DNA of 64,000 nt, taken from positions 62,001-126,000 of the forward strand of contig NZ_JBBMXV010000004.1 in assembly GCF_037996645.1 (NCBI RefSeq), written 5' to 3'. Below, in pieces: positions 12,072 through 25,658 of the stretch (position 1 is the stretch's first letter; each line of letters begins with the position of its first letter). A program made the position numbers and the translations under genes. This stretch comes from Halalkalicoccus tibetensis (GTDB lineage Archaea > Halobacteriota > Halobacteria > Halobacteriales > Halalkalicoccaceae). The notes below the pieces were generated by a model. It ran no database searches. It was not told the DNA's origin and saw only the letters and a list, made by a program, of their open reading frames with translations.

Positions 12072-12344
12072 TTACCGTTCGTCGCCGGGCGTCGTCGGGC
12101 GCGGACGGCGCCCGAACTCCGAGCGCCGGTAGCGCTCCTGGTTGCGGATCTCCTCGTCCCACTCGGTGAAGATGCCGTACTCGACCATCGTCGTCATCCC
12201 CGCGATCGCCGCCCGGAGGTTGATGCCGACCAGCGGGATGTCCGCGACCGTCACGACGACGTCCGCCTGGACCAGCGCCCCCTCGGTCAACAGCACGTCG
12301 AGCACGTCGACGACCGCGTGACCCTCGGTGCGCGTCGGCTCCAT
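12072..12344 (-). CDS. gvpM: Gas vesicle protein GvpM
   Basis: GvpA-family minor protein, 90 residues, last gene of the leftward gvp operon. The GvpA-like core reads VVDVLDVLLTEGALVQADVVVTVADIPLVGINLRAAIAG. The tail EWDEEIRNQERYRRSEF is typical of GvpM. ATG 12344 is used; it overlaps the gvpL stop (TGATG), while the preceding GTG would add one residue. GvpM belongs to the F-M accessory set needed for vesicle nucleation. Confidence 0.88.
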   Translation of the reverse strand: MEPTRTEGHAVVDVLDVLLTEGALVQADVVVTVADIPLVGINLRAAIAGMTTMVEYGIFTEWDEEIRNQERYRRSEFGRRPRPTTPGDER

Positions 12345-13189
12345 CACTCCTCACCCCCGATCGACGGGGCATGCGAGTACGGCGGCCACGGCCCCGTGTA
12401 GTTGACGTCGAACCCCTCCCGCTCGAGGAACCCCTCGAGGACGTCGCCGATCGGCCCCTCGCTCTCCCCGGGCGCGAGCACCGAGAGCTGGACGACCGTC
12501 TCGAGGCCGTCGTCGACCCCGTTCGTCCCGCTGGCGTCCAGAAGCGTCGACCCGCCGTCCCCGGCCGTCTCGACCGCCGCGGCGTGTTCCGCGACCCGAT
12601 CGTAGAGTTCGCCCGCGAGCTCGTCGCGGCGCGCCTGGAGGCGCTCCGCGAGGCGCTGGTCGTACTGCTTCTCGATCAGGTAGCCGGTGCCCTCGCTCGA
12701 ACCCTCGATGCGCTCCTCGAGCTCCGCGAGCTCCTCGTCGCCCTCGGCGATCCCCTCGCGAACCGCCGCCTCGTCCCATCTGAGCTCGATCCGGTACTCC
12801 CAGCGGCCCGAGAGCTCGTCGAGGGCCTCGTCGAGCTGCGCGCCGTTCTCGTCGATCCAGCCCTCGACGCGCCCGTCGTCGCCCTTGATGACGGTGTCGA
12901 ATCGGAAGGGGACGGGGGTGTCGAACGCCTCGCCCGCGGCGTCGACGACGCGCTGATGGGCGAGTAGCCACCGCTTGACCTGCGTGAGGTCGTCCGAATC
13001 GAACATCGCGTCGACGGGCTGGACGACCGCGCCGATCCCCTCGTGCTCGACGATCCGGACCTCGCCGCCCTCGATTCCCTCGACGTCGATCGAGGCGTCA
13101 CCGTCGGCCCGGACCGCACAGTAGAGGTACCGACCCTCGTCGAACTCCGTGGCGCGCTGGTTCTGGTTTCGACTCTCGTTCCCGCTCAT
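12344..13189 (-). CDS. gvpL: Gas vesicle protein GvpL
   Basis: Protein of 281 residues of the GvpL/GvpF family, starting at ATG 13189 within the gvpK stop. It begins the conserved part with GRYLYCAVRADGD and ends with FDVNYTGPWPPYSHAP, the YTGPWPPY signature shared with GvpF. GvpL is thought to act as a hub that binds the other accessory proteins during nucleation. A longer upstream open frame on this strand is gvpK sequence read in another frame and is not coding. Confidence 0.92.
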   Translation of the reverse strand: MSGNESRNQNQRATEFDEGRYLYCAVRADGDASIDVEGIEGGEVRIVEHEGIGAVVQPVDAMFDSDDLTQVKRWLLAHQRVVDAAGEAFDTPVPFRFDTVIKGDDGRVEGWIDENGAQLDEALDELSGRWEYRIELRWDEAAVREGIAEGDEELAELEERIEGSSEGTGYLIEKQYDQRLAERLQARRDELAGELYDRVAEHAAAVETAGDGGSTLLDASGTNGVDDGLETVVQLSVLAPGESEGPIGDVLEGFLEREGFDVNYTGPWPPYSHAPSIGGEE

Positions 13190-13518
13190 TCTTCGAGCTC
13201 CTCGTAGTGGTCGTCGTAGACCCGTTCGATCCCGTCCGAGAGGAGGTCGTTGAGCTCGCCGCGCAGCTCGCCGACGTCGCTCTCGATCCCCTCTCGCTCC
13301 TTGATGCCCTCGATCTCCTCCTCGATCGCCTGGAGCTGCGTCCCGAGGCGTTCGATCTCCTCGGGGTCGAGAGCACCCGACTCCATCCGTCGGATCGCCT
13401 CCTTCTCCATGGCCTCGACGAGCAGCTCGACGACGGTGATCACGAGCGCCAGCAGCCCCGAGGCCGCGTCCGCCTCGCTTCCCTCGTCGCTCTCGCCGCC
13501 GAGGTCGATCTGTCTCAT
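13186..13518 (-). CDS. gvpK: Gas vesicle protein GvpK
   Basis: Protein of 110 residues matching GvpK: LLALVITVVELLVEAMEKEAIRRMESGALDPEEIERLG, then a coiled-coil-like acidic carboxy half. It is essential for vesicle formation in haloarchaea and bacteria. It overlaps gvpJ and gvpL by 4 bp at each end, which suggests translational coupling. Confidence 0.92.
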   Translation of the reverse strand: MRQIDLGGESDEGSEADAASGLLALVITVVELLVEAMEKEAIRRMESGALDPEEIERLGTQLQAIEEEIEGIKEREGIESDVGELRGELNDLLSDGIERVYDDHYEELEE

Positions 13519-13988
13519 GAATCGCCCTCACTTTCGTCGTCCGCGTCGGTCACCTCCTCGCCGCCCCCGTCACCCTCGTCCTCGCTCCCGCCCTCGCCGT
13601 CGTCGGTGGCGATCGGGACCTCGGGGTTCGGGCGCTCGCTCGGGGGGTCGCTGCTGGAGCTCTCGCTCCCGCCTTCATCGTCGTCCGCGTTCGAGCCCCC
13701 CTCGCTCGCGCTGATCCCAAGGTTGACTTCCTCGCCCTCCTCGACCTCGAGGGGTTCGCGGCCCGAGGCCTGTTCGACCCGGCGCATGTCCGTGCCGCTC
13801 GGGAACGCCAGTCCGTACTCGGCGGCGGTCTCGAAGGAGGCGATCGCCGCCCGGATCTCGACCCCCAGGAGCTCGGTCTCGCCGACGGTGACCGCGATGT
13901 CGGCGTTGATCACGATTCCCTTATCGAGCACGAGCTCGAGGACGTCCGCGAGGTCGCTTTTCTGTCGTGTTGGTTTTGCGCTGCTCAT
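13515..13988 (-). CDS. gvpJ: Gas vesicle protein GvpJ with long acidic tail
   Basis: GvpA paralogue of 157 residues. The GvpA/J core is residues 8-75 (LADVLELVLDKGIVINADIAVTVGETELLGVEIRAAIASFETA). A tail of about 70 residues, mostly Ser, Gly, Asp and Glu, makes it noticeably longer than the roughly 110-120 residues usual for GvpJ. Minor wall or nucleation protein. It sits seven bases after the unassigned gvpI-position gene and overlaps gvpK. Confidence 0.9.
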   Translation of the reverse strand: MSSAKPTRQKSDLADVLELVLDKGIVINADIAVTVGETELLGVEIRAAIASFETAAEYGLAFPSGTDMRRVEQASGREPLEVEEGEEVNLGISASEGGSNADDDEGGSESSSSDPPSERPNPEVPIATDDGEGGSEDEGDGGGEEVTDADDESEGDS

Positions 13989-13995
13989 GGTTAGG

Positions 13996-14796
13996 TCACT
14001 CCGTGTTCGCGTCGTCGAACCGTCGGCCGTAGATCCGCCGCGGGTTGTCCGCCCGCGAGTACTTGACCTGCGAGGGCACCGTCGAGCGCCGCGTCGAGGC
14101 CGAGTTCGCGAGCGGGCCGCTCGGCATCGTCGAGACCGCCGTCGGGTTCAACGAGTCCTGTCCGCTCAGCTTCTCCTGGTTGTACTTATAGAGCAGACGG
14201 AGCTTGTCGTGGGTCTCCAGCAGTGCGGTCCGGAACCCCCCAACCGCCTTCGAGATCAGGTTCTCGATGTGTTGCTGGCGGTTCTCGGGGTCGAACTGCA
14301 TGTGGGCGCCGTCGCCCATCCCCAGCTCCGTATCGAGCAGGCCGCCGTCGTCCTCGTTCGCGCCGTCGACGTCGTCGTCGGTGACGTCGTCGATCTCCTC
14401 CTCGAGCTCCTCCTGTTCCTCGCGCAGGTCCCCGATGTCCGCGGCCTCCCACAGCTCCCGGAACCGGATCGCGTCCTTGAGGTCGGTGAGATCGATCGCG
14501 TCGCCGTCCTCGTCATCGGCGATCGCCTCGGGGATCTCCTCGACGTCGACGGCGTCGGGCAGCTCGTCGAGCTCGATCACGTCGGGCACCTCCTCGAGGT
14601 CGAGGGTCTCGAGGACGTCCTCGGCCTCGTCGAGGACGTCCCAGATCTCCTCGGCGGTCTCGATGACGTCCTCGTCGTCGCTCCCCTCGACGATGTGGCG
14701 CTTCAGCTCCTCGATCCCGTCGGCGATCTCCGGGAGCAGCTCCTCGAGCTCGTCGAGGATCGACTCCTGGAGCGTCTCCGATTCGGTCTCGCTCAC
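13996..14796 (-). CDS. Acidic protein in the gvpI position, family unassigned
   Basis: Protein of 266 residues between gvpH and gvpJ, the place of gvpI in halobacterial clusters. Classical GvpI is short and basic. This protein is long and acidic, with three imperfect units (LEEVPDVIE, LDELPDAVD, VEEIPEAIA, around residues 66-95), then FRELWEAADIGDLREEQEELEEE. A later helix, VGGFRTALLETHDKLRLLYKYNQEK, precedes a basic Ser/Arg-rich end (RADNPRRIYGRRF). The carboxy end could be a GvpI remnant fused to an unrelated haloarchaeal domain; I cannot confirm that. It overlaps gvpH by 4 bp. Confidence 0.7.
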   Translation of the reverse strand: MSETESETLQESILDELEELLPEIADGIEELKRHIVEGSDDEDVIETAEEIWDVLDEAEDVLETLDLEEVPDVIELDELPDAVDVEEIPEAIADDEDGDAIDLTDLKDAIRFRELWEAADIGDLREEQEELEEEIDDVTDDDVDGANEDDGGLLDTELGMGDGAHMQFDPENRQQHIENLISKAVGGFRTALLETHDKLRLLYKYNQEKLSGQDSLNPTAVSTMPSGPLANSASTRRSTVPSQVKYSRADNPRRIYGRRFDDANTE

Positions 14797-15317
14797 GATC
14801 CTGCCCCCTCGGGTTCGGTCCGCAGGCGGACCTCGAGGACGCCGTTCCTGAACGTCGAGTCGGCCACGTCGATCCCGGCGTCGCCGAGCGGGATCCGCTC
14901 GATCACCTCGCTCCCGAGCCCGATGACGAGGTCGCCCCGCTCGCGGTCGATCCCGGCGGTGACGTCCTCGGCGGTCGCCTGCGGGAGGTCCGCGAGCACG
15001 ACCACGGCGTCCTCCTCCTCGCGGATGTCGACGAGGTGGTCGTCGTCGGCGGGTGCGGGCGTCGACGCCGAGCCCGACGACCCCGATCCGCTCGCCTCGC
15101 TTTCCTCGTCGACCCCGAGGCGCTCCCAGAGGCTGTCGGGGTCCGGTCCGGTGCCGACGCTGAACCCGTAGTCGGTGCGCGTGTGGTTGCCCGAGACCGT
15201 CCCGCTGCCCGTTCCACTCCCCTCGCCGTCTCGTTCCGCGTCCTGTAGCGTCTCGACGACGTGTCTGAGGACGTCGAGCAGCGACGAGGCTTCGCGATGG
15301 TTGTCGTCGGTCGTCAT
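14793..15317 (-). CDS. gvpH: Gas vesicle protein GvpH (Hsp20-like)
   Basis: Protein of 174 residues. The amino half is Gly/Ser/Thr-rich and low complexity. The carboxy half is a small-heat-shock-like domain (HLVDIREEEDAVVVLADLPQ, then FRNGVLEVRLR, the alpha-crystallin FxNGVLEV pattern). GvpH in Haloferax and Halobacterium is dispensable and thought to chaperone other Gvp proteins. It overlaps gvpG upstream and the unassigned gene downstream. Confidence 0.9.
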   Translation of the reverse strand: MTTDDNHREASSLLDVLRHVVETLQDAERDGEGSGTGSGTVSGNHTRTDYGFSVGTGPDPDSLWERLGVDEESEASGSGSSGSASTPAPADDDHLVDIREEEDAVVVLADLPQATAEDVTAGIDRERGDLVIGLGSEVIERIPLGDAGIDVADSTFRNGVLEVRLRTEPEGAGS

Positions 15318-15568
15318 TGTTGGATCTGGATGTTCTTGTTGTTGAGCTGTTCGTGTGCCTGTTCGGCCGTCTCGAGCTCCGCCTCGAGCTCCGCCTTCCG
15401 CTCAGTGTACTCCGCCTCGGTAAGCTCCCCGAGCTCGTAGAGCAGCTGGTTCTCCTTCAGGTCGTTCTGGATCTCCTCGATGTCGTACAGCTCCTTGACC
15501 GCCATCGTGTGGATCGCGTCGAGGATGGAGGTGAACGGTCGGATGAGGATGTCATCGAGGATGAACAT
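15314..15568 (-). CDS. gvpG: Gas vesicle protein GvpG
   Basis: Protein of 84 residues with the GvpG pattern: MFILDDILIRPF at the start, then AVKELYDIEEIQNDLKEN and a coiled coil (LGELTEAEYTERKAELEAELETAEQAHEQL). Essential accessory protein. The gene follows gvpF by 6 bp and overlaps gvpH by 4 bp. Confidence 0.92.
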   Translation of the reverse strand: MFILDDILIRPFTSILDAIHTMAVKELYDIEEIQNDLKENQLLYELGELTEAEYTERKAELEAELETAEQAHEQLNNKNIQIQQ

Positions 15569-15574
15569 GATTGG

Positions 15575-16204
15575 TTATCGTTCGGCGGTGATCTCGATGT
15601 CGACGAAGTTGTAGGGTGCCCACGGCCCGGTGTACTGTACGAGCAGCTCGTCGTGGTCATCCTCGAACTCGCCGACGGCCCCGTCGAACGCCTCCCGGTC
15701 GTCGCGCTCGACGAGGTACGATCGGTTGATCACGAGTCGATCACTGAACAGTTCGTTCTCCACCACGTTAACACTTATCCGGTCGAACCGCTCCTTGACC
15801 TCCGCGAGGAGCTCCTCGCGATCGACCTCGGCGTCCTCCTCGGTGAGGACCTTCAGGCCGAGCTCGACCATCCCGTCGATCTCCCGTAGCGTCCGTCTGA
15901 ACACCGGCCTGGCGTTCCTGAGGACGTTCTTCAGGGTGCGCTCGTTCTTGAACCCCATGCCGAACCCCATCGGGACGATCGTCCGGCCGCCGTCGTACTG
16001 GAGGATCGTCTGGAGCACCTCGTCGTGCCGGCGGACGTTCTCGTCGGTCCGCTCGGGTTCGACCGTGTCGATGTCCGAGACGACGGCCGAAAGCGATTGG
16101 TAGTCGACCGTGTAGGCGCGCTCGCCCCCGTCGACGCCGTCGATCTCGACATCGAGGTCCTCGTTCTCGATCACGCCGTACACGTAGAGTGAGTCGTCGG
16201 TCAT
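15575..16204 (-). CDS. gvpF: Gas vesicle protein GvpF
   Basis: Protein of 209 residues, first gene of the leftward operon, starting at ATG 16204. Family features are [11 protein letters not shown], the central [19 protein letters not shown], and the end [20 protein letters not shown] with the same YTGPW-PYNF element as GvpL. GvpF is a minor structural/assembly protein that contacts GvpA. An upstream extension to 16360 would run into the divergent gvpA promoter and is rejected. Confidence 0.93.
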
Positions 16205-16332: not shown

Positions 16333-16596
16333 ATGAGTCAAGCAAGACCAAGCACGTCAAGTCTGGCGGAAGTACTCGACCGGATCCTCGACAAAGGCGC
16401 TGTCATCGACATCTGGGTCCGCGTCTCGCTCGTCGGGATCGAGATCCTGACCGTCGAGGCCCGTGTCGTCATCGCGTCCGTCGACACGTTCCTCCACTAC
16501 GCGAGGGAGATATCGAAGATCGAGCAAGCCGAGGAGGAAGGGGACTTAGACGACCTCGAGGACATCGAGATCGAGGCGTCCGCCGAATCCGCGTAA
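16333..16596 (+). CDS. gvpA: Major gas vesicle protein GvpA
   Basis: Main wall protein, 87 residues. The core is near-canonical: [58 protein letters not shown]. It forms the amphipathic rib lattice of the vesicle. The carboxy tail is more acidic than usual ([21 protein letters not shown]). The ATG at 16333 follows GAGGGGAAG, a possible ribosome binding site. gvpO follows 9 bp downstream. Confidence 0.97.
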
Positions 16597-16605
16597 GCGG
16601 GCCCC

Positions 16606-17058
16606 ATGTCCGCTGCGGGATCAGACGACGGGCAGTGTCGGGCGCTGACGTCCGACGGTGAGCGGTGTACCCGGCCGGAACAGGACGACGGGTTCTGTTA
16701 TCAACACGGGCCCGACGACGAGACGATCGACGATCAAGAGACAGGATCCACTATGTCAAGCGAAACCGACGTCAGCGAGACCGAGATCGGTGCCGTGCGC
16801 ACGAAGATCAACGAGGTCGCCGAGGACCTCATCGGACGGCCGCTCATAAGCGTCGTCTCCGTCGACCGCGACCGCAAGAAGGACGACGACGAGGAGCCGG
16901 GCTGGGTCGCGGCCGTCGAGATCCTCGAACGCAAGAGCGTCCCCGACACCCAGGACATCCTCGGACGCTACGAGATCACGCTCGATGCGGACCAGACGAT
17001 CACCGGCTACCGTCGAACCCACCGGTACCGCCGCGACGACATGGATCAGGACGTCTGA
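16606..17058 (+). CDS. gvpO: Gas vesicle protein GvpO with N-terminal Cys/His knuckle
   Basis: Protein of 150 residues. The carboxy part (about 65-145) is GvpO: ISVVSVDRDRKK, then GWVAAVEILERKSVPDTQDILGRYEITLDADQTITGYRRTHRY. The first 35 residues form a separate module, CRALTSDGERCTRPEQDDGFCYQHG, with a C-x8-C-x8-C-x2-H pattern that probably binds a metal. An internal ATG (codon 50) would give the classical GvpO alone. Both starts read well; the longer is annotated because the knuckle is clearly protein-like. Confidence 0.87.
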   Translation: MSAAGSDDGQCRALTSDGERCTRPEQDDGFCYQHGPDDETIDDQETGSTMSSETDVSETEIGAVRTKINEVAEDLIGRPLISVVSVDRDRKKDDDEEPGWVAAVEILERKSVPDTQDILGRYEITLDADQTITGYRRTHRYRRDDMDQDV

Positions 17059-17109: not shown

Positions 17110-17448
17110 ATGAGTGACGACGAGATCGTCCTGCCATGGATCGACGAACCGATGAACGTAGAGGAAGCCGTCGAGGCGCTCGGGCAGGCCTCAGTCGACG
17201 ACGGCGAGCACCTCGAGGAGCTGGAAGCACGTATCGAACGCCTCGAACGCCTCGTCGACAGCCTTCAGGACGGTTCAGGGGTCGAATGCCCCGAGTGCGG
17301 GAGCGAGGAGGAGGTCTACAAGGCCGGCGTCGGCGCCGCGAAGCTCGCGAACGACGGCGGGCTGACCGACGGCAGCGCCGACGCGCTCAACCGTGAGTCC
17401 CACGTCTGTCTCGACTGCCAGGAGTCGTTTACACCCTCGTTCAAGTGA
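17110..17448 (+). CDS. Coiled-coil zinc-ribbon protein downstream of gvpO
   Basis: Protein of 112 residues, not recognised. Residues 1-30 are acidic with a possible amphipathic helix (MNVEEAVEALGQA). Residues 35-55 form a short coiled coil (LEELEARIERLERLVDSL). The rest has two CxxC pairs (CPEC and CLDC) flanking about 40 residues, a likely zinc ribbon. It is 51 bp after gvpO on the same strand. A role in vesicle assembly or regulation is a guess from position. Confidence 0.75.
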   Translation: MSDDEIVLPWIDEPMNVEEAVEALGQASVDDGEHLEELEARIERLERLVDSLQDGSGVECPECGSEEEVYKAGVGAAKLANDGGLTDGSADALNRESHVCLDCQESFTPSFK

Positions 17449-17515: not shown

Positions 17516-20038
17516 ATGGGTGATGAACGTACGACCGATGACTCCATAGAGCGATCCGAGAGGCACGTACTGCTTTCGGATGGTGGGGAGTCAGCGGACG
17601 AAAGCGAGGAGGACGACGAAGAGGGAGAAGCGTCCGAAGACACGGGACCCGAGAACGGAGAGGACGACGAAGAAGGGGAAGACGAGAGGAGCGAAAGTGA
17701 CGAGGAAGACGATGAAGTGGAGCAAGACGACGAAAGTGAGGAGGACGAAGAGGAGAACGGCGACGAGGAAGACGAGGAAAGCGAGGCCGACGAAGACGAC
17801 GAAGACGAAGAAGACGAGGAAAGCGAGGCCGACGAAGACGACGAAGACGAAGAAGACGAGGAAGCGGAGGAAGACGAGGAAGAGACATACGAACTTTCGG
17901 TAACCGTCGAGAACAGCGAGGGCGAATCCGTCGCGGGCGCGCCCGTCACCGTCGAGAGCAAGGATATGGGGGTCATCGAGGGCGTTGTCGACGATCCCGA
18001 GCAGGAAGAAACCGACGAGGACGGCGCGGTCACCTTCGAGTTAGGGGACGCTGAATACAGCGTCGAAACAGTCGTCGGCGACGAGGAAGTCGAGGAACGA
18101 ATCGAGACCGACGGCGCCGACGAGGAGGTTACCCTTTCGCTCGATACCGACGCCGAAGACGCGGAGGAAGCAGAAAACGAAGACGAGGCGGACGAAGACG
18201 AGGCGGACGAAGACGAGGAGGAGGCCGAGGAAGAACAAGCCGATGAAGGCGAGGAGGACGAAGAGGATGCGGAGGGCGAAGCCGACGACGGCGACGAGGA
18301 GGAAGCAGCCGAGGAGAGCGAGCGAAACGAGCTGATCGTCGTCGTCGAGAACGAAAACGGCGAGTATATTCAGGGCGCGACCGTCTCGGTCGAAAACAAG
18401 GACGACGACTCCTTGGGTGGGGGCGAACAGCAGGACACCGGCTCCGATGGCGAGACACGGTTCCTCGTCGAGGACGGCGATTACGTCGTCGAGGCCGAGG
18501 CCGACGAGGGGAGCGCCGAAGACCAGTTCCCCCTTGAAGGCGACGAGGAGATCACGTTGACCGTCGTCTCCGACGAGGAGACTCACACGCTCACAGTCAC
18601 CGTACAGGACGACGAAGGCGAGCCCGTTTCAGGGGCGTCTATTACCGTCGAAAGCGAGGATATGGGGTTGGTCGAGGGATTTCAGACTCGCCCCGACGAA
18701 GCCGAAACCGATTCGAGCGGACAGGAGTCCTTCGATCTGGCGTCAGGTCAGTACACGGTGGCCGTCGAAGCCGACGACGAGACGAACGACCAAGCGATCG
18801 AGATCGAGGACGACGACGAGGATGTCACGCTCACGCTCGATGTCGGCGAAGAGGACGAGGAGGACGAAGAGGAAGGTCGTGTCGGCCCGAAGGAAGCGGA
18901 GGGCGAGGTCGACGAGGACGAGTCCGCGAGCCACGGCACCGAACGCGGATCGACGGTGCTGTATCTCGATCTCGAGGGGCTGTTCCTCGATCTCCTCGGA
19001 CTGGAGGTCGATCTCCACGAGGTCGTCCTCGACGTTCGGGCGATCACTGGAGAGGGGAACCTACTCGGGAACCTGCTGTCGGCGGTCGCAGGGCTGTTGG
19101 ATTCGCTGTCGGGCGTGCTCAACCGATTGCTCAACACCGTCCTCAATCTGTTGAGCTACATCACTTCGCCGTTGAAATGGCTCTGGAACCAGATCAAAAA
19201 ACCGTTCAAATGGGCCCGCCAGCTCTTGAGCCGGGTCGCGAACACGCTCGCGGCGCCGATCAGTGCGATCAAGAGCGCTGCAAGTCGGGTCTGGGGTGTC
19301 ATCACCTCGCCGATCAACGCACTCAAGAGCGCTGCGAGCTGGATCTGGGGAATCGTCAGTTCGCCGGTGGATTCGATCAAAAACGCGCTGGGACGGCTCC
19401 GGGGGCTACTCCCCTCGTTGCCCTCGCCCGGTGGCTGGCTGGGGAGTGTCACAGAGCGACTCAAGAGCGCCCTCGGCGTTCCGGCCGACTACCTGCGCGT
19501 CGGCGCGAACCGTCTCGGAAACTCCATCGAGAACGCGATCGACGCGCTGCGTGGCCTCGGCGGTCGAGTTCTTGGAGTTCTTACCTCGCCGATCAGTGCG
19601 CTCGGTAGCGCACTGGGTCGGCTTCGAGATGCGTTGGCCTCGCCGATCGAGACGCTTCGAAACGCCGCGAGCCGCGCTTTCGGCGTGCTCACCGCGCCGG
19701 TCGACTGGCTGCGTGGGCTGTTCGGCGGCGACGATGAAGAGGACGAAGAGGACGAAGGGGACGGATTGCTGAGTGGGATTGCAGAAAGCGTCTCCGACCG
19801 GCTGAGCAGCGTCGTCGAATGGGCGAGCGACATCGAGGATCGGATCGCGGGCTGGGCGCGAAACGCTGCGGATCGGATCTCGAACTGGCTGCGCAACGTC
19901 GCGAACTGGCTCACCAGCCCGATCCAGATGCTGCTTTCGGCGTTCCCGATCGAGTCGCTGCTCAACGAGCTGCTCAAGCAGTTGATCGGTGAATCAGAGG
20001 ACAACGAGTCGAACGGTGGGGAGGACACTACCGAGTGA
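17516..20038 (+). CDS. Large acidic modular protein: Cna-B-like domains, LGNLL domain, 18-residue helical repeats
   Basis: Protein of 840 residues with no signal peptide. Residues 25-125 are almost pure Asp/Glu/Ser. Three homologous beta domains of the Cna-B/carboxypeptidase-regulatory type lie at about 126-207, 272-348 and 357-437 (VTVENSEGESVAGAPVTVES and relatives), separated by acidic linkers. Residues 482-525 form a compact hydrophobic domain (LFLDLLGLEVDLHEVVLDV, then GNLLGNLLSAVAGLLD). Residues 580-735 are amphipathic helices punctuated by Ser/Ala-Pro, often 18 residues per unit. Two more helical stretches follow an acidic spacer. Function unknown; a surface-coating protein is an inference. 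TATA-like CTACTTATG lies about 25-30 bases upstream. Confidence 0.8.
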   Translation: MGDERTTDDSIERSERHVLLSDGGESADESEEDDEEGEASEDTGPENGEDDEEGEDERSESDEEDDEVEQDDESEEDEEENGDEEDEESEADEDDEDEEDEESEADEDDEDEEDEEAEEDEEETYELSVTVENSEGESVAGAPVTVESKDMGVIEGVVDDPEQEETDEDGAVTFELGDAEYSVETVVGDEEVEERIETDGADEEVTLSLDTDAEDAEEAENEDEADEDEADEDEEEAEEEQADEGEEDEEDAEGEADDGDEEEAAEESERNELIVVVENENGEYIQGATVSVENKDDDSLGGGEQQDTGSDGETRFLVEDGDYVVEAEADEGSAEDQFPLEGDEEITLTVVSDEETHTLTVTVQDDEGEPVSGASITVESEDMGLVEGFQTRPDEAETDSSGQESFDLASGQYTVAVEADDETNDQAIEIEDDDEDVTLTLDVGEEDEEDEEEGRVGPKEAEGEVDEDESASHGTERGSTVLYLDLEGLFLDLLGLEVDLHEVVLDVRAITGEGNLLGNLLSAVAGLLDSLSGVLNRLLNTVLNLLSYITSPLKWLWNQIKKPFKWARQLLSRVANTLAAPISAIKSAASRVWGVITSPINALKSAASWIWGIVSSPVDSIKNALGRLRGLLPSLPSPGGWLGSVTERLKSALGVPADYLRVGANRLGNSIENAIDALRGLGGRVLGVLTSPISALGSALGRLRDALASPIETLRNAASRAFGVLTAPVDWLRGLFGGDDEEDEEDEGDGLLSGIAESVSDRLSSVVEWASDIEDRIAGWARNAADRISNWLRNVANWLTSPIQMLLSAFPIESLLNELLKQLIGESEDNESNGGEDTTE
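17768..17851 (+). repeat. Two perfect 42-bp tandem copies in the acidic tract
   Basis: Bases 17768-17809 and 17810-17851 are identical, and the first bases of a third copy follow. Each codes for fourteen residues rich in Glu and Asp with one Ser and one Ala. The plus strand here is nearly all purine plus C. Confidence 0.9.
19253..19693 (+). repeat. 18-residue proline-punctuated helical repeats (54-bp units)
   Basis: Three contiguous units code for residues 580-597, 598-615 and 616-633 (APISAIKSAASRVWGVIT, SPINALKSAASWIWGIVS, SPVDSIKNALGRLRGLLP). After a diverged 57-residue stretch, two more units follow at 691-708 and 709-726. The consensus is [SA]-P-[IV]-x2-[LI]-x2-A, then x2-R in most units, ending in a hydrophobic pair. 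Eighteen residues equal five alpha-helical turns. Confidence 0.85.
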
Positions 20039-20183: not shown

Positions 20184-20675
20184 ATGAGTGACAACGGAAA
20201 TGACGACAACGGCAGTGGTACCGAGAACGAAAACGGAAACGGCGGCTCTTCGCTGCTCGATACGGTCACGGAGGCGGTCGGCGACATCGATTTCGAGCAG
20301 GTGTTCGAAGGAACAGTATTAGAGGATTCCTTCGACCCGGACGAGCAGAACACCGGGGTGGCGGTCGGGCGTGCGGTTGGCGAATTCCTTGGCCAGAAGC
20401 TCGGTGAGGTCGCTGGTCGGAAGATCGCGGAGATGATCGCCGAGGAGTTAGCCGAGAGTGATGATGAAGACGAAGAGGATGAGGAAGACCAAGAAGACGA
20501 GGAGGAAGACGCTGATGAAGAAGAGGATGACGGCGACGAGGACGAAGACGAGGAATCGGAGGGGGAAAACGAAGAGGATGAGGGCGAAGACGCTGATGAA
20601 GAAGGGGATGACGGTGACGAGGACGAAGACGAGGAATCGGAGGAGGAGCCCGAGGAAGAAGACGAGGAGGACTGA
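20184..20675 (+). CDS. Glycine-zipper acidic protein 1
   Basis: Protein of 163 residues. A Gly/Asn-rich start is followed by a helix (residues 59-90) with Gly at exactly every fourth position (62, 66, 70, 74, 78; GVAVGRAVGEFLGQKLGEVAG), then about 75 residues that are nearly all Asp and Glu. The segment before the helix, EGTVLEDSFD, matches EGTQLEDTDG in the next protein, so the two are paralogues. ATG 20184 is chosen over 20127 because the paralogues also start MSD. Function unknown. Confidence 0.72.
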   Translation: MSDNGNDDNGSGTENENGNGGSSLLDTVTEAVGDIDFEQVFEGTVLEDSFDPDEQNTGVAVGRAVGEFLGQKLGEVAGRKIAEMIAEELAESDDEDEEDEEDQEDEEEDADEEEDDGDEDEDEESEGENEEDEGEDADEEGDDGDEDEDEESEEEPEEEDEED

Positions 20676-20786
20676 GACGGATGGGACGACCGGCTGACCG
20701 ATTCACCGGGAGCACCGATTCACGCATCACACGAACCGTGGCGAACCAGCGACGCAAGCGGTGTTCGAGCGGAGGCTCTGACAGCT

Positions 20787-21470
20787 ATGAGTGACGACAA
20801 CAACGACGACGACAGTTCGGTCCTCGAAAGCATCGATACGGACGAACTCCTCGAAGGGACACAGCTAGAGGACACCGACGGGGATACCAAGAGCCTGGGC
20901 GAGGCGATCGGCCGTGCGATCGGTGCGATCATCGGAAGGCATATCGGCGAACTAATCGGACGGATGGTTACCGACCGGCTCAGCGGCGGAGACGAAGAAG
21001 AAGACACTCATGAACTGACGGTCACCGTGGCAGACGAGGACGGCGAACCCGTTCCGGGCGCGACCGTGACGACCAAGGACGCGGATGGGGGCCTTCTGAG
21101 TGGCGTTCTCGGGAGTGCCGAACGCGCCGAGACCGACGACGACGGCGAGACCACCGTCCAGCTCGAAGACGGCGACTACACGGTCGAGGTCGACGCCGAG
21201 GACGGAAGCGGCGAGGACAACGTGACCATCGAGGGCGAGGACGAGGAGCTCTCGGTGACCATCGAGGATGAAAGCGACGACGAGGAAGACGCCGGAGAGG
21301 ACGAAGCCGAAGACGCTGAAGAAGACGAAGCCGAAGAAGCTGAAGAAGCTGAAGAAGACGAAGCCGAAGAAACTGAAGAAGCTGAAGAAGACGAAGCCGA
21401 AGAAGACGAAGCCGAAGAAACTGAAGAAGCTGAAGAAGACGAAGCCGAAGAAGACGAAGACGAAGAATGA
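20787..21470 (+). CDS. Glycine-zipper acidic protein 2 with one Cna-B-like domain
   Basis: Protein of 227 residues. The amino part is homologous to the preceding protein and has Gly at 38, 42, 46, 50, 54 and 58 (LGEAIGRAIGAIIGRHIGEL). A single Cna-B-like domain follows at about 74-150 (HELTVTVADEDGEPVPGATV), closely related to the three in the 840-residue protein. The tail is Glu/Ala/Asp repeats. The mix of modules ties this gene to both types of neighbour. Role unknown. Confidence 0.75.
   Translation: MSDDNNDDDSSVLESIDTDELLEGTQLEDTDGDTKSLGEAIGRAIGAIIGRHIGELIGRMVTDRLSGGDEEEDTHELTVTVADEDGEPVPGATVTTKDADGGLLSGVLGSAERAETDDDGETTVQLEDGDYTVEVDAEDGSGEDNVTIEGEDEELSVTIEDESDDEEDAGEDEAEDAEEDEAEEAEEAEEDEAEETEEAEEDEAEEDEAEETEEAEEDEAEEDEDEE
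21363..21458 (+). repeat. Two perfect 48-bp tandem copies (Glu/Ala/Asp tract)
   Basis: Bases 21363-21410 and 21411-21458 are identical and sit in a longer purine-rich tract (about 21290-21468). The tract uses GAA for glutamate almost throughout, unlike the GAG preference of most genes in the window. Confidence 0.9.
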
Positions 21471-21532
21471 GGGAATGAAAGCATGACCACGAGAAGATCA
21501 CGGGAAACAGAAATATCGGCGGAGTGTGGATC

Positions 21533-22468
21533 ATGAGTGACGAGTCGATCATCGAGGCTGTCAATACTGGGGCACTGCTCGAAGCTATCGACATCGGCGA
21601 TCTACTCGAAGAGGTCGATCTCGAAAAACTGGCCAAGCGCGAGGATGTCAACGCAGCGGTCGCGGAGGTCGGTGCGGTCCTTGGGCGCGAACTGGGGCGG
21701 GCACTCGGCCGGGAACTCGGAGAGGTTACCGCCGAAGCGTTCGCCGAACACCCCTCAGCTGACGAGCTGATCGAGGAGATTAAAGGCGCGATCCACGAGG
21801 CGCTCAGGAGCCTGCTGGTGGATCCTGACGCTCGGTCGTCGCTCAAAGACGAACTCAAATCAATTGGTACGGAGCAGCTCTCCGGAGACCTGATATCGGA
21901 CGCTGTGGGCGGTTCGCTCGGCGATGACGAGGAAGAAGATGGCGAAGACGAGCAAGCGAGCGAGGAGGACGCCGAATCAGATGGGGAAGAGTCTGGCGAG
22001 AGCGACGATGAGGACGCTGAAGACGAGTCCGAAGAGGTGGAAGAAGACGAAGGAAGCGATGAGGGCGGGGACGAGGAAACCGAAGACGAAGAGGAGAAAG
22101 ACGAAAAGGACGAGGAGGCTGAAGAAGACGAGGAAGCTGAGGAAGACGAAGAAGGCGACGAGGGGGAGGACGACGAAGAAGAGGAAGAAGGTGACGAGGA
22201 AGGTGAAGAAGAGGACGAAGACGAAGAAGAGGCGGACGAGGAGGCTGAAGAAGACGAGGAAGCTGAGGAAGACGAAGAAGAAGAGGACGAAGGCGACGGG
22301 GACGAGACTGAAGGGGACGAGGACTCTGATCCGTCGAGCCGCGAGGAGTTAGAGGAGCTGTCCTACCGCGAGCTGCAGTCGCTCGCGAAGGACCACGACA
22401 TCAAGGCCAACCTCGGTCGCGAGGAGATGACCGACGATCTCGTCGAGGCGCTCGACCTCGAGGAGTAG
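21533..22468 (+). CDS. Glycine-zipper acidic protein 3 with SAP/Rho-N-like C-terminus
   Basis: Protein of 311 residues. The start resembles its neighbours (MSDESIIEAVNTGALLEAID). A helix has Gly at 47, 51, 55, 59 and 63 (VGAVLGRELGRALGRELGEV). Residues of about 75-130 look globular and helical. A Glu/Asp tract runs to about 265. The last 45 residues (LEELSYRELQSLAKDHDIK, then a short helix ending LVEALDLEE) resemble the SAP/Rho-N helix-extension-helix fold that often binds nucleic acid. ATG 21533 follows a GGAGTG sequence. Function unknown. Confidence 0.75.
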   Translation: MSDESIIEAVNTGALLEAIDIGDLLEEVDLEKLAKREDVNAAVAEVGAVLGRELGRALGRELGEVTAEAFAEHPSADELIEEIKGAIHEALRSLLVDPDARSSLKDELKSIGTEQLSGDLISDAVGGSLGDDEEEDGEDEQASEEDAESDGEESGESDDEDAEDESEEVEEDEGSDEGGDEETEDEEEKDEKDEEAEEDEEAEEDEEGDEGEDDEEEEEGDEEGEEEDEDEEEADEEAEEDEEAEEDEEEEDEGDGDETEGDEDSDPSSREELEELSYRELQSLAKDHDIKANLGREEMTDDLVEALDLEE

Positions 22469-22687: not shown

Positions 22688-23524
22688 TTATCGCTCGATG
22701 CCGTCCGCCCGCGGTCGTCGCTCGGTCCCGGCGTGCCACTCGGCGAGCGCCGAGAGACACGGGGTGACTCCCGACTGCGTCGGGACCCGGTAGTGGGCGT
22801 CGGTCTCGCCGGTACCGACGTAGATCGCGAGTCCGTCGTCGACCGCCCGGAACGCCGACTCGTCGGTGGTGTCGTCGCCGATGTAGATCGGGAGCCAGTC
22901 GTCGGGGTGGTCGTCGACGAGCATCGAGACGGCCATCCCCTTGTGCCAGCGCACCTCGGGCCGGAGCTCGACGATCTCCTTTCCGTCGGTCTTCTCGATC
23001 CCGCTGCCGCCGAAGCGTTCGACGGCGTCGTCGACGGCCTCGCGGACCACGGGCACCGCCTCGTCGGGCGTTTGCCGGTAGTGGATCGTCGCGGTGACGC
23101 CCTTGTCCTCGATGCCCGTCCCGTCGATCCCCGCGAGCGCCTCGCTGAGCGCCTCACAGATCCGCTCGATCCGGTCGGCGTGTCGCTTCGCGATCGGATG
23201 AACCACGACCGAACCCTCGCGTTCGAGCTCGAGCCCGTGGTTGCCGGCGTAGGCGATCCCCTCGACCCCGACGCGCTCGCGGACGTCCGTGAGCGCGCGC
23301 CCGCTGACGACCGCGACACGGGTGTCGCCGGCGTCTCGGAGCCGCTCTAACAGCTCGCGGTTCTCCGGGTCGATCTCCGGGGCGTCGGGGTCCTCCTCGA
23401 TGGGCGCGAGCGTGCCGTCGAAGTCCGTACACACCACCAGACCCGCGGCCTCCTCGACGGCCTCGCGGATCTCCCCGTGGGAGTCCTCGAACCGTTCGAG
23501 CGAGTCGCCCGCGACCTCAGACAT
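22688..23524 (-). CDS. otsB: Trehalose-6-phosphate phosphatase
   Basis: HAD-superfamily phosphatase, 278 residues, converting trehalose 6-phosphate to trehalose. Motif I is DFDGTLAPI (residues 34-42), followed by VVSGR, the family stretch GNHGLELE, the catalytic lysine region around WHKGMAV, and motif IV YIGDDTTDESAF. The start overlaps the otsA stop by 8 bp, so both enzymes are co-produced. Trehalose is a compatible solute in many haloarchaea. Confidence 0.94.
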   Translation of the reverse strand: MSEVAGDSLERFEDSHGEIREAVEEAAGLVVCTDFDGTLAPIEEDPDAPEIDPENRELLERLRDAGDTRVAVVSGRALTDVRERVGVEGIAYAGNHGLELEREGSVVVHPIAKRHADRIERICEALSEALAGIDGTGIEDKGVTATIHYRQTPDEAVPVVREAVDDAVERFGGSGIEKTDGKEIVELRPEVRWHKGMAVSMLVDDHPDDWLPIYIGDDTTDESAFRAVDDGLAIYVGTGETDAHYRVPTQSGVTPCLSALAEWHAGTERRPRADGIER

Positions 23525-25001
23525 GCGTCACCGAGAGGTCGCGGTCGTTCTCGCGGGCGAGCGCGGTCTCGAGGACGTCGTCCATCCACGCGACGAGGTC
23601 GTACTCTGAGACGCGTCGTCGCTGGGCGGCCATCCGGTCCGTCCGCTCGTCGGCGGGCATCGAGAGCGCCCGCTCGATCGCGTCGGCGAACGCCCGGGTG
23701 TCGTAGGGGTTGATCGTCACCGCGTCCTCGCCGAGCTCCTCGTGGGCGCCCGCGAACTCCGAGAGCAGGAGGACGCCGTCGTCGTCGATCTGGGAGGCGA
23801 CGTACTCCTTCGCGACGAGGTTCATCCCGTCGCGTAGTGCGCTCACGAGCGCGAGGTCGCCGTGGCGGTACAGCGCGTACAGCTCCGCCTCGGGGAGCAT
23901 CTCGTCGACCCGAACGACGGGCCGCCACTCGTCGGTCCCGAACCGGTCGTTGACCCGCTCGATCGCGGTGTCGACCCGCTTTTGGAGGTACTCGTAGGCC
24001 TCGATCTCGCTCCGGCTCGCCGAGCCGTTCTGGACGTAGGTGAACTCGCCGCGCCACTCGGGGTTCTCCTCGAGGAAGCGCTCGATGGCGTCGATCCGTT
24101 CGGGAATGCCCTTGGTGTAATCCAGCCGGTCGACGCCGACTGCGACCGTCTGGCCCTCGAGCCCGTACCGTTCGGCGAGGTCGGGCCAGACGTCCGGCCG
24201 GTTGGCGAGCTCCGCCGTCCGCTCGGCGTCGATCCCGAGCGGGAACGCCCGAACCGCCGTCTCCACCCCGGCGTGGCTGACCGTCCGGTCCTCGCGGTCG
24301 ACGCTCGCCCCGGGAACCGCCTCCGCGACGCAGTCGAGGAAGTTCTCCACGTACTCAGGGACGTGGAAGACGAGCAGGTCGTTGGCCAACAGCCCGTCGA
24401 GCAGCTCCTCGGCCTGCGGGCAGGCGCCGAAGGTGTCGGCTGTGGGCCAAGGGATGTGCCAGAACTGCGCGAGCAACGCCCCCGGGAGCTCCCGGCGGAC
24501 GAACCGGGGCGCGAGCGCGAAGTGGTAGTCCTGGAACCAGATCAGGCTCCCGTCGCCCGCCTCCTCGACGGTCGCGTCGGCGAACCGGCGGTTGACCGAC
24601 CGGTAGCGCTCGAAGTCCCGCCCGTCACAGCGCATCGGATAGACCATCCCGTGACAGAGCGGCCAGAGCGCCTGGTTGCTGTAGCCGAAGTAGTAGCCCT
24701 CGAGCTCCGCCTCGCTCAGGTCGACCCGCGAGAGCGTATACGAGGGGTCGTCGGGGGGCACCTCGACGCGCCCGTCGTCCGCGACCTCGAAGTCGGCGTC
24801 GCCGTCGCCCCACGCGATCCAGGTGCCCTCGGCGCGCTGCATCACCGGGTCGATCCCCGCCGTCAGCCCGCCCGCGGGCCGGGAGACGGTGATCTCCCCG
24901 TCCTCGCGATCGTGCGAGTAGGGCTGCCGGTTCGAGACGATCAACAGGTCGCGCTCCGAGAGCGCCTCGGTCACCGACGGGCTCAGCTGGTGGTCGCTCA
25001 T
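23517..25001 (-). CDS. otsA: Trehalose-6-phosphate synthase
   Basis: GT20 glycosyltransferase, 494 residues, joining a nucleotide-activated glucose to glucose 6-phosphate. Visible family elements are LLIVSNRQPYSH, RPAGGLTAGI, WFQDYHFALAP, FWHIPWP, GVDRLDYTKGIPER and ALRDGMNLVAKEYVA. ATG 25001 overlaps the stop of the upstream unknown gene (ATGA). Long extensions further upstream are not supported. The order unknown-otsA-otsB suggests one operon. Confidence 0.95.
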   Translation of the reverse strand: MSDHQLSPSVTEALSERDLLIVSNRQPYSHDREDGEITVSRPAGGLTAGIDPVMQRAEGTWIAWGDGDADFEVADDGRVEVPPDDPSYTLSRVDLSEAELEGYYFGYSNQALWPLCHGMVYPMRCDGRDFERYRSVNRRFADATVEEAGDGSLIWFQDYHFALAPRFVRRELPGALLAQFWHIPWPTADTFGACPQAEELLDGLLANDLLVFHVPEYVENFLDCVAEAVPGASVDREDRTVSHAGVETAVRAFPLGIDAERTAELANRPDVWPDLAERYGLEGQTVAVGVDRLDYTKGIPERIDAIERFLEENPEWRGEFTYVQNGSASRSEIEAYEYLQKRVDTAIERVNDRFGTDEWRPVVRVDEMLPEAELYALYRHGDLALVSALRDGMNLVAKEYVASQIDDDGVLLLSEFAGAHEELGEDAVTINPYDTRAFADAIERALSMPADERTDRMAAQRRRVSEYDLVAWMDDVLETALARENDRDLSVTHV

Positions 25002-25411
25002 GGGAGCGGCTGTGGTCCCGGGTCGTCGGGCGCCGTCCGCCCCCACTCGTCGTGGCTTTCGATCGCCGAGTCGGCCTCGAGCAGCTCGAGTAGTCTGTTC
25101 AAGGAGATGCCCTCGTCCGATTCGCCGACCTCGTTTATCTGTTGCATGTGTCTGAGTAACGTATCCACTGCGGCGTTCGTCGTGGATACGTATCCTAGCC
25201 CCATATCGCTTTTCGCTTCGCCGACCCGCCGTTCGCAGGCGAGTCGCCAGAGCTGGCTCGCACACAGCTCCGGAAGGGCGGGGCTCTCGTCGGCCGGCTC
25301 CGCGATGAGCCGGATCCGATCCTCGTCCCGCCTGAACGCGATCCTGTCCTCGTGGGTGGTCTCTGCGACCCATCCACACGGCAGGAGTATGTCCTCTAGT
25401 TCGGGTTTCAT
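24998..25411 (-). CDS. Unknown protein leading the trehalose operon
   Basis: Protein of 137 residues, not recognised. MKPELEDILLPCGWVAETTHEDRIAFRRDEDRIRL looks like a small alpha/beta unit. It is followed by LCASQLWRLACERRVGEAKSDMGLGYVSTTNAAVDTLLRHM and an acidic helix. No catalytic motif stands out. The 4-bp overlap with otsA suggests a regulatory or accessory role in trehalose synthesis. A TATA-like CATATAAAG lies about 70 bases upstream. Confidence 0.75.
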   Translation of the reverse strand: MKPELEDILLPCGWVAETTHEDRIAFRRDEDRIRLIAEPADESPALPELCASQLWRLACERRVGEAKSDMGLGYVSTTNAAVDTLLRHMQQINEVGESDEGISLNRLLELLEADSAIESHDEWGRTAPDDPGPQPLP

Positions 25412-25658
25412 GGCCCTGTCTTGGGAACACCTACAACGCTCCGAGCACTCCCCCTTCTGCCTGCGATACCGTGGACTTTATATGTGATCCGCTCTCGACG
25501 ATGGATACTTCACTCGGATCCGTATCAACCTGGTCTCTCCGCGATATCGGCGGTTCACAGCGGGCTTCGGCCGATACCCATGAATAGGGCGCGCACGCAA
25601 GGCCCCCATATTTGCTATTAATGACCCAATATCGACCATCCCCACTAGGGACTGAACG

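Follow-up and report, generated by a model that had tools for sequence, protein, structure and literature searches.

GvpC, an outer shell protein that attaches to gas vesicles from outside and strengthens them, contains amphipathic repeat helices and a very acidic region, is encoded beside gvpA and has a GvpI-type partner in its system. In Halobacterium salinarum, GvpI binds GvpC, GvpL and GvpH in split-GFP (PMC9501494), and its loss leads to very long vesicles (PMC9501494, PMC7688916). A long N-terminal extension of GvpI has been recorded for two species (PMC3403918), and several species with gvpC-less clusters were reported to be vesicle-negative (PMC4390858); these statements are taken from the available parts of the four papers. 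As for glycine-rich helices, the YG box of SMN forms a soluble helix in which Gly recurs every four residues and close packing is expected; its GxxxGxxxG is combined with interdigitated Tyr (PMC8287954, available in part). The transmembrane glycine zippers of the Gly-zipper_Omp and Gly-zipper_YMGG families have (GxxxG)n spacing.

The locus described here is located in a stretch of 64,000 nucleotides of Halalkalicoccus tibetensis, the whole of which is referred to as the window. Like the GvpC system, it encodes amphipathic repeat helices, very acidic regions and a GvpI-type protein beside gvpA. However, no sequence similarity to GvpC was found: the zip proteins have glycine-zipper helices, and the repeats of the LGL protein, punctuated by Pro, are of another kind. 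A literature search found nothing that joins "gas vesicle" or "haloarchaea" with "glycine zipper", nor was a zipper/LGL module found in the available parts of papers on gvpI, gvpC, Halalkalicoccus, soluble zippers and accessory genes.

Glycine stripes and domains of the zip proteins

Three adjacent paralogues, zip1, zip2 and zip3 (positions 20184-22468, plus strand), carry Gly at an exact four-residue spacing, with six, six and five Gly, respectively (Table 1). The three open frames with this spacing had been pointed out in a preliminary description, and re-reading of the translations confirmed the positions. The Gly counts given there were correct for zip2 and zip3, but zip1 contains six rather than the five listed, since Gly58 had been left out. 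The EGTxLED motif is present in zip1 and zip2, as claimed.

Table 1. Features of the gas-vesicle cluster and the adjoining zip/LGL module (positions in the window)
Feature	Position	Strand	Remarks
gvpM	12072..12347	-	gas-vesicle cluster
gvpL	12344..13189	-	PF06386, E 2.7e-61; start inferred
gvpK	13186..13518	-	gas-vesicle cluster
gvpJ	13515..13988	-	PF00741, E 1.4e-12
gvpI homologue, long acidic N-terminus	13996..14796	-	266 aa; family profile
gvpH	14793..15317	-	PF05455, E 4.7e-21
gvpG	15314..15568	-	gas-vesicle cluster
gvpF	15575..16204	-	start inferred
gvpA	16333..16596	+	start inferred
gvpO	16606..17058	+	PF05800, E 4.4e-22
zinc-ribbon-like gene (ZnR)	17110..17448	+	below Pfam cut-offs
LGL protein	17516..20038	+	840 aa; acidic N-terminus, three CarboxypepD_reg/Big_1 domains, LGL domain
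LGL domain (LYLDLEGLFLDLLGLEVDL..GNLLGNLLSAVAGLLD)	18938..19150	+	conserved partner of zipper genes
zip1 (type A)	20184..20675	+	163 aa; FEGTVLED segment N-terminal, glycine-zipper helix, acidic tail
zip1 six-glycine stripe	20355..20417	+	residues 58, 62, 66, 70, 74, 78
zip2 (type A)	20787..21470	+	227 aa; LEGTQLED segment, glycine-zipper helix, Ig-like domain, acidic tail
zip2 six-glycine stripe	20898..20960	+	residues 38-58, within predicted helix 34-66
zip2 CarboxypepD_reg/Big_1-like domain	21015..21260	+	same domain type three times in LGL protein
zip3 (type B)	21533..22468	+	311 aa; N-terminal helix segment, glycine-zipper helix, long acidic linker, conserved tail
zip3 five-glycine stripe	21671..21721	+	residues 47-63
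zip3 C-terminal SAP/Rho_N-like tail (SYRELQSLAKDHDIKANLGREEM)	22313..22465	+	below Pfam cut-offs

Plain chance and low complexity were rejected as the source of the Gly runs on the basis of two analyses. Composition-preserving shuffles of the N-terminal parts matched the runs of zip1, zip2 and zip3 in 30, 2 and 51 of 100,000 cases, respectively. Among 957 distinct predicted genes (from 42 sequence stretches, i.e. 41 loci and 25 kb of the window), runs of at least five Gly were present in 40 of the 50 zipper-profile genes versus 3 of the 907 others; this count and the homology-based selection are linked, since some of these genes had been used to build the profiles. Homologues conserve the glycine spacing, a point on which the preliminary description had made its interpretation depend: four Gly columns are invariant in the alignment of type A (21 sequences) and three in that of type B (12 sequences). 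Comparison of the helix codons with those of three close relatives revealed ratios of synonymous to amino-acid changes of 14:5 for zip2, 25:7 for zip3 and 18:16 for zip1. Gly was retained in 47 of 48 comparisons of Gly residues, although its codons differ synonymously; these residues are thus under selection.

The small-xxx-Gly-xxx-small spacing of the glycine zipper motif is thus found within one predicted helix. In the repeating tetrad, position +3 is occupied by I/L/V/M/F/A in 99% of cases (nearly always Ile/Leu/Val) and +1 mainly by R/E/A, while +2 is mixed. The stripes, known from sequence and prediction, differ from the SMN YG box: they contain 4 to 8 Gly, +3 is Ile/Leu/Val, and +1 is Arg/Glu. 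They also differ from the transmembrane zippers: against Gly-zipper_Omp (PF13488) and Gly-zipper_YMGG (PF13441), zip2 reached 17.6 bits (cut-off 25) and a type B homologue 13.6 and 13.0 bits, below the cut-off. The helix appears too charged for a plain membrane span, and a membrane-spanning zipper was considered unlikely given the charges at +1. Neither the zipper part nor the LGL domain matched any Pfam or NCBIfam family above cut-off; there were no convincing relatives among PDB sequences (best E 0.21 and 0.72), and zip2 and LGL had no match in the plasmid collection. A separate haloarchaeal family with Gly tetrads and the motif VG[RK]YTPGQ was detected outside the module (L005, G000:C3:193871; L035, G066:C3:123065).

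An AlphaFold2 monomer model of zip2, based on 21 related sequences, contains one helix (residues 34-66), with a pLDDT of about 86-88 over residues 41-60 and lower values toward the helix end. The hydrophobic moment of the zipper helices peaks at 88-90 degrees (period 4.0), reaching 1.6-2.0, compared with 0.09-0.74 at 100 degrees. With this periodicity, the Gly and Ile/Leu/Val stripes should wind around the helix rather than lie on a single fixed face. Of the amphipathic helix proposed initially, the long helix is thus borne out by the zip2 model, but simple alpha-helical amphipathicity is not. In GxxxG packing, a winding stripe with a period of 4.0 favours a close right-handed helix crossing. 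We infer that the zip helices may oligomerise via the Gly stripe, and the fact that types A and B often occur as a pair points to hetero-oligomers.

The paralogy proposed initially is supported for all three proteins. Profile-profile comparison of types A and B gave a probability of 98.6 (E 4.8e-16), and the homology spans 79 columns, including the non-glycine N-terminus. The C-terminal tail of type B (SYRELQSLAKDxDIKANLSREEM) is conserved in almost all members; in zip3 it weakly resembles SAP and Rho_N domains, scoring 15.4 and 15.3 bits, respectively, below the curated cut-offs of 26.3 and 24.9 bits. Taken as a whole, the initial interpretation was right about paralogy, spacing and helix and wrong about simple amphipathicity; it had overlooked the surrounding gas-vesicle genes, LGL and GvpI as partners, and the SAP/Rho_N-like tail of zip3.

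Gas-vesicle cluster and the zip/LGL module

The window contains a haloarchaeal gas-vesicle cluster (at 12-17 kb), in which gvpA, F, G, J, K, L, M and O are all present. On the plus strand, the genes run gvpA-gvpO-ZnR-LGL-zip1-zip2-zip3, separated by roughly 10 to 150 bases and with the zip genes last; gvpF-G-H-I-J-K-L-M are located on the opposite strand. The ZnR gene between gvpO and LGL is kept in 8 of 21 neighbourhoods, and the window GvpO (16606-17058) has a Cys/His-rich DUF5763 domain at its N-terminus. The cluster has no gvpN, and the sole GvpN of the genome (G000:C1, near 344713; L071) is encoded on another contig, far from gvp genes. Genes for trehalose-phosphate phosphatase and synthase (22688-25430) adjoin the module and are its neighbours in several genomes of the genus. 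The segment 52001-54000 has a G+C content of 0.57, versus about 0.67 for the window.

The window GvpI shares with H. salinarum GvpI the C-terminal STMP..STVP..YS..RxYGxR region (hhalign probability 96.8, E 2.2e-10), and a profile of the window type finds the H. salinarum protein at 1e-7. In place of the short, strongly basic N-terminus of the latter (144 aa in total), it has a long acidic one.

The C-terminus of the LGL protein, as read from the sequences, consists of Pro-punctuated amphipathic helices in a row; its structure model is of low confidence (pLDDT 55). Close to their N-terminus, most LGL proteins have the short motif DGG[EQ] in common (e.g. from window position 17516 onwards). When the search was extended beyond the sampled order to 294 genomes of the phylum, LGL matched in 17, every one a member of the same order. 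Some LGL-like matches contain in-frame stops and are apparently decaying (G007:C2:335299, G008:C357:4464, G009:C132:1629, G110:C113:4369), and one row (L006), partly nonsense sequence, was left out of the alignment.

In 20 neighbourhoods from relatives, the zipper genes are in most cases accompanied by an LGL-domain protein and often by a GvpI-like gene; a home-made gene caller underlies several of the counts reported here. Eleven neighbourhoods contain a gvp cluster. Where zipper genes are linked to gvp clusters, their site varies: (i) after gvpO/LGL, (ii) between gvpH and gvpI, as in two genomes (L050, L051) whose clusters contain both LGL and a zipper gene at this site, (iii) between gvpF and gvpO, and (iv) beyond gvpM. 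In one genome (G107) a zipper gene is placed between gvpA and a gvpO. In the nine other neighbourhoods the module has no gvp genes nearby (L040, L042, L043, L044, L046, L047, L048, L052, L053); most of these separate modules have the operon-like order LGL-zipA-zipB-GvpI-like, and all nine genomes carry GvpA-family genes elsewhere. In G172, the module and the gvp cluster directly adjoin each other, and each has a GvpI-like gene.

Distribution of the module and of GvpC

The tie to gas-vesicle genes was examined in 195 genomes of the order, which are related and sampled and hence not independent. GvpA-family genes were detected in 81 of them, LGL in 63 and zippers in 68. The zipper profile matched 66 of the 81 GvpA-family-positive genomes versus 2 of the 114 negative ones (Fisher p 1.5e-34, descent ignored), and LGL matched 61 versus 2 (p 2.6e-30, again ignoring descent). 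By genus, LGL was present in 25 of 33 gas-vesicle genera versus 1 of the 33 others. The GvpA-negative genomes with zippers (G077, G113) gave weak matches only (4e-4 and 6e-5), and those with LGL are a genome that is 70% complete (G008) and one with a broken match (G017). At least 30 of the 66 genomes with both zipper and GvpA have a zipper match no more than 7 kb from a GvpA-family match, and at most 36 have zipper genes without demonstrated gvp proximity. Neither GvpC nor LGL was found in 12 of the 81 gas-vesicle genomes, six of which also had no zipper match; the module is therefore not essential for gas-vesicle genomes.

With H. salinarum GvpC as query, no match was obtained in the source genome (G000) at E 0.001. 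Strong matches (E below 1e-20; 8 of the 12 rows at E 0.001) were present in 8 of the 195 genomes, and none of these eight had zipper or LGL (p 3.9e-6). The four weak rows that were dropped (G035, G117, G161, G180; 3e-5 to 1e-3) belong to genomes absent from the GvpA-family list. When 36 clusters were placed in a tree based on GvpL+GvpF, those with GvpC (these eight and H. salinarum, nine in all) formed one clade (support 1.0). The mutual exclusion of GvpC and the module thus amounts to one evolutionary split, not eight, and the above p value overstates it. The gas-vesicle machinery therefore comprises two lineages, with GvpC and without it. Within a single genus (g25), G061 has the module and a GvpC-less cluster, whereas G068 has GvpC and no module, i.e. 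the module follows the gvp lineage and not the host.

These observations bear on whether the co-occurrence reflects shared lifestyle or descent only, with the module serving some other function of halophiles. The genomes lacking demonstrated zipper-gvp proximity and the non-independence of the sample would fit such an explanation. It nevertheless seems very improbable, given that the module occurs in only two gas-vesicle-negative genomes per profile, in weak or broken form, that it is linked to gvp genes in at least 30 genomes, that it encodes a GvpI-type protein, and that G061 and G068 differ as described. The zip/LGL module very likely belongs to the gas-vesicle system. Since the zip genes lie beside gvp genes and their relatives occur almost only in gvp-carrying microbes, the zip proteins are probably an unrecognised part of its machinery.

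The split is paralleled by GvpI, which is short and basic with GvpC and long and acidic without it. In the GvpC lineage the short, basic form was found in eight clusters, the ninth (L065) being matched at 69% identity. Outside GvpC clusters, the N-terminal pI was 4.1-4.3 in 31 of 33 cases and 6.1 in two (among the 40 listed of 46 open frames); in these two an upstream start was probably taken.

GvpD/E were found in 8 of the 9 GvpC clusters and in no GvpC-less gvp locus that was examined, so that lacking GvpD/E cannot be separated from lacking GvpC. This pattern would be expected if the module regulated the gvp genes, zip3 with its tail binding nucleic acid and replacing the missing GvpD/E, and the conserved, weakly SAP/Rho_N-like tail of type B fits that idea as well. 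We regard such regulation as unlikely: every SAP/Rho_N score is below the Pfam cut-offs, the LGL protein and the poly-acidic tails seem unlike regulators, and one genome with GvpC and neither GvpD/E nor the module (G064) weakly favours a tie to GvpC.

Possible role in GvpC-less gas vesicles

The best explanation, to which we assign a probability of about 0.5, is that zip1-zip3 are accessory proteins of GvpC-less gas vesicles that form oligomers through their Gly helices and take part, with LGL and GvpI, in shaping or reinforcing the shell. Each zip protein would consist of a short acidic N-terminal segment, a helix of about 30 residues and a further acidic part, tail or linker, that suits high salt, and the Gly stripe would allow tight right-handed packing against a sister helix. 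Together with LGL and GvpI in its long acidic form, the zip proteins may act on the growing shell or close to it; these partner contacts and this location are presumed. Considering the contacts of H. salinarum GvpI, it is probable that a module encoding a GvpI-type protein of its own links up with the assembly complex. The likeliest job would be shaping or reinforcing the shell, as GvpC does in the other lineage; that the zip/LGL set does a GvpC-like job in its own lineage is a tentative proposal, with somewhat less than even odds. Still more speculative is a second, GvpC-independent cladding or shaping of the vesicles, in which the zipper helices of two or three paralogues would polymerise with an amphipathic LGL scaffold on the shell and be recruited by the altered, acidic GvpI.

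The same helices could instead serve as cross-links that tether or cluster finished vesicles, mutually or to the nucleoid or membrane. One to three paralogues with helices of the oligomerisation type, long acidic spacers, a possible nucleic-acid-binding tail and the dispensability of the module in some gas-vesicle genomes would suit that role. The GvpI of the module, however, points to the assembly complex and not to finished vesicles, and we consider tethering as doubtful as regulation.

Work on haloarchaeal gas vesicles rests on a few GvpC-bearing model clusters, while most of the sampled gas-vesicle genomes have no recognisable GvpC but do have zipper and LGL proteins that fall outside Pfam families (above cut-off). 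If the second cladding route is true, it would represent the commoner lineage in the sample (LGL in 61 of the 81 gas-vesicle genomes, GvpC in 8). As for the vesicle-negative records of several GvpC-less species, which weigh against the explanation preferred here, the published gene lists may omit a needed, and sometimes unlinked, module. If the zip and LGL proteins shape or strengthen the shell, this would explain how GvpC-less clusters could work. It would also widen the set of parts for vesicle engineering and give structural biology a soluble glycine zipper of unusual length.
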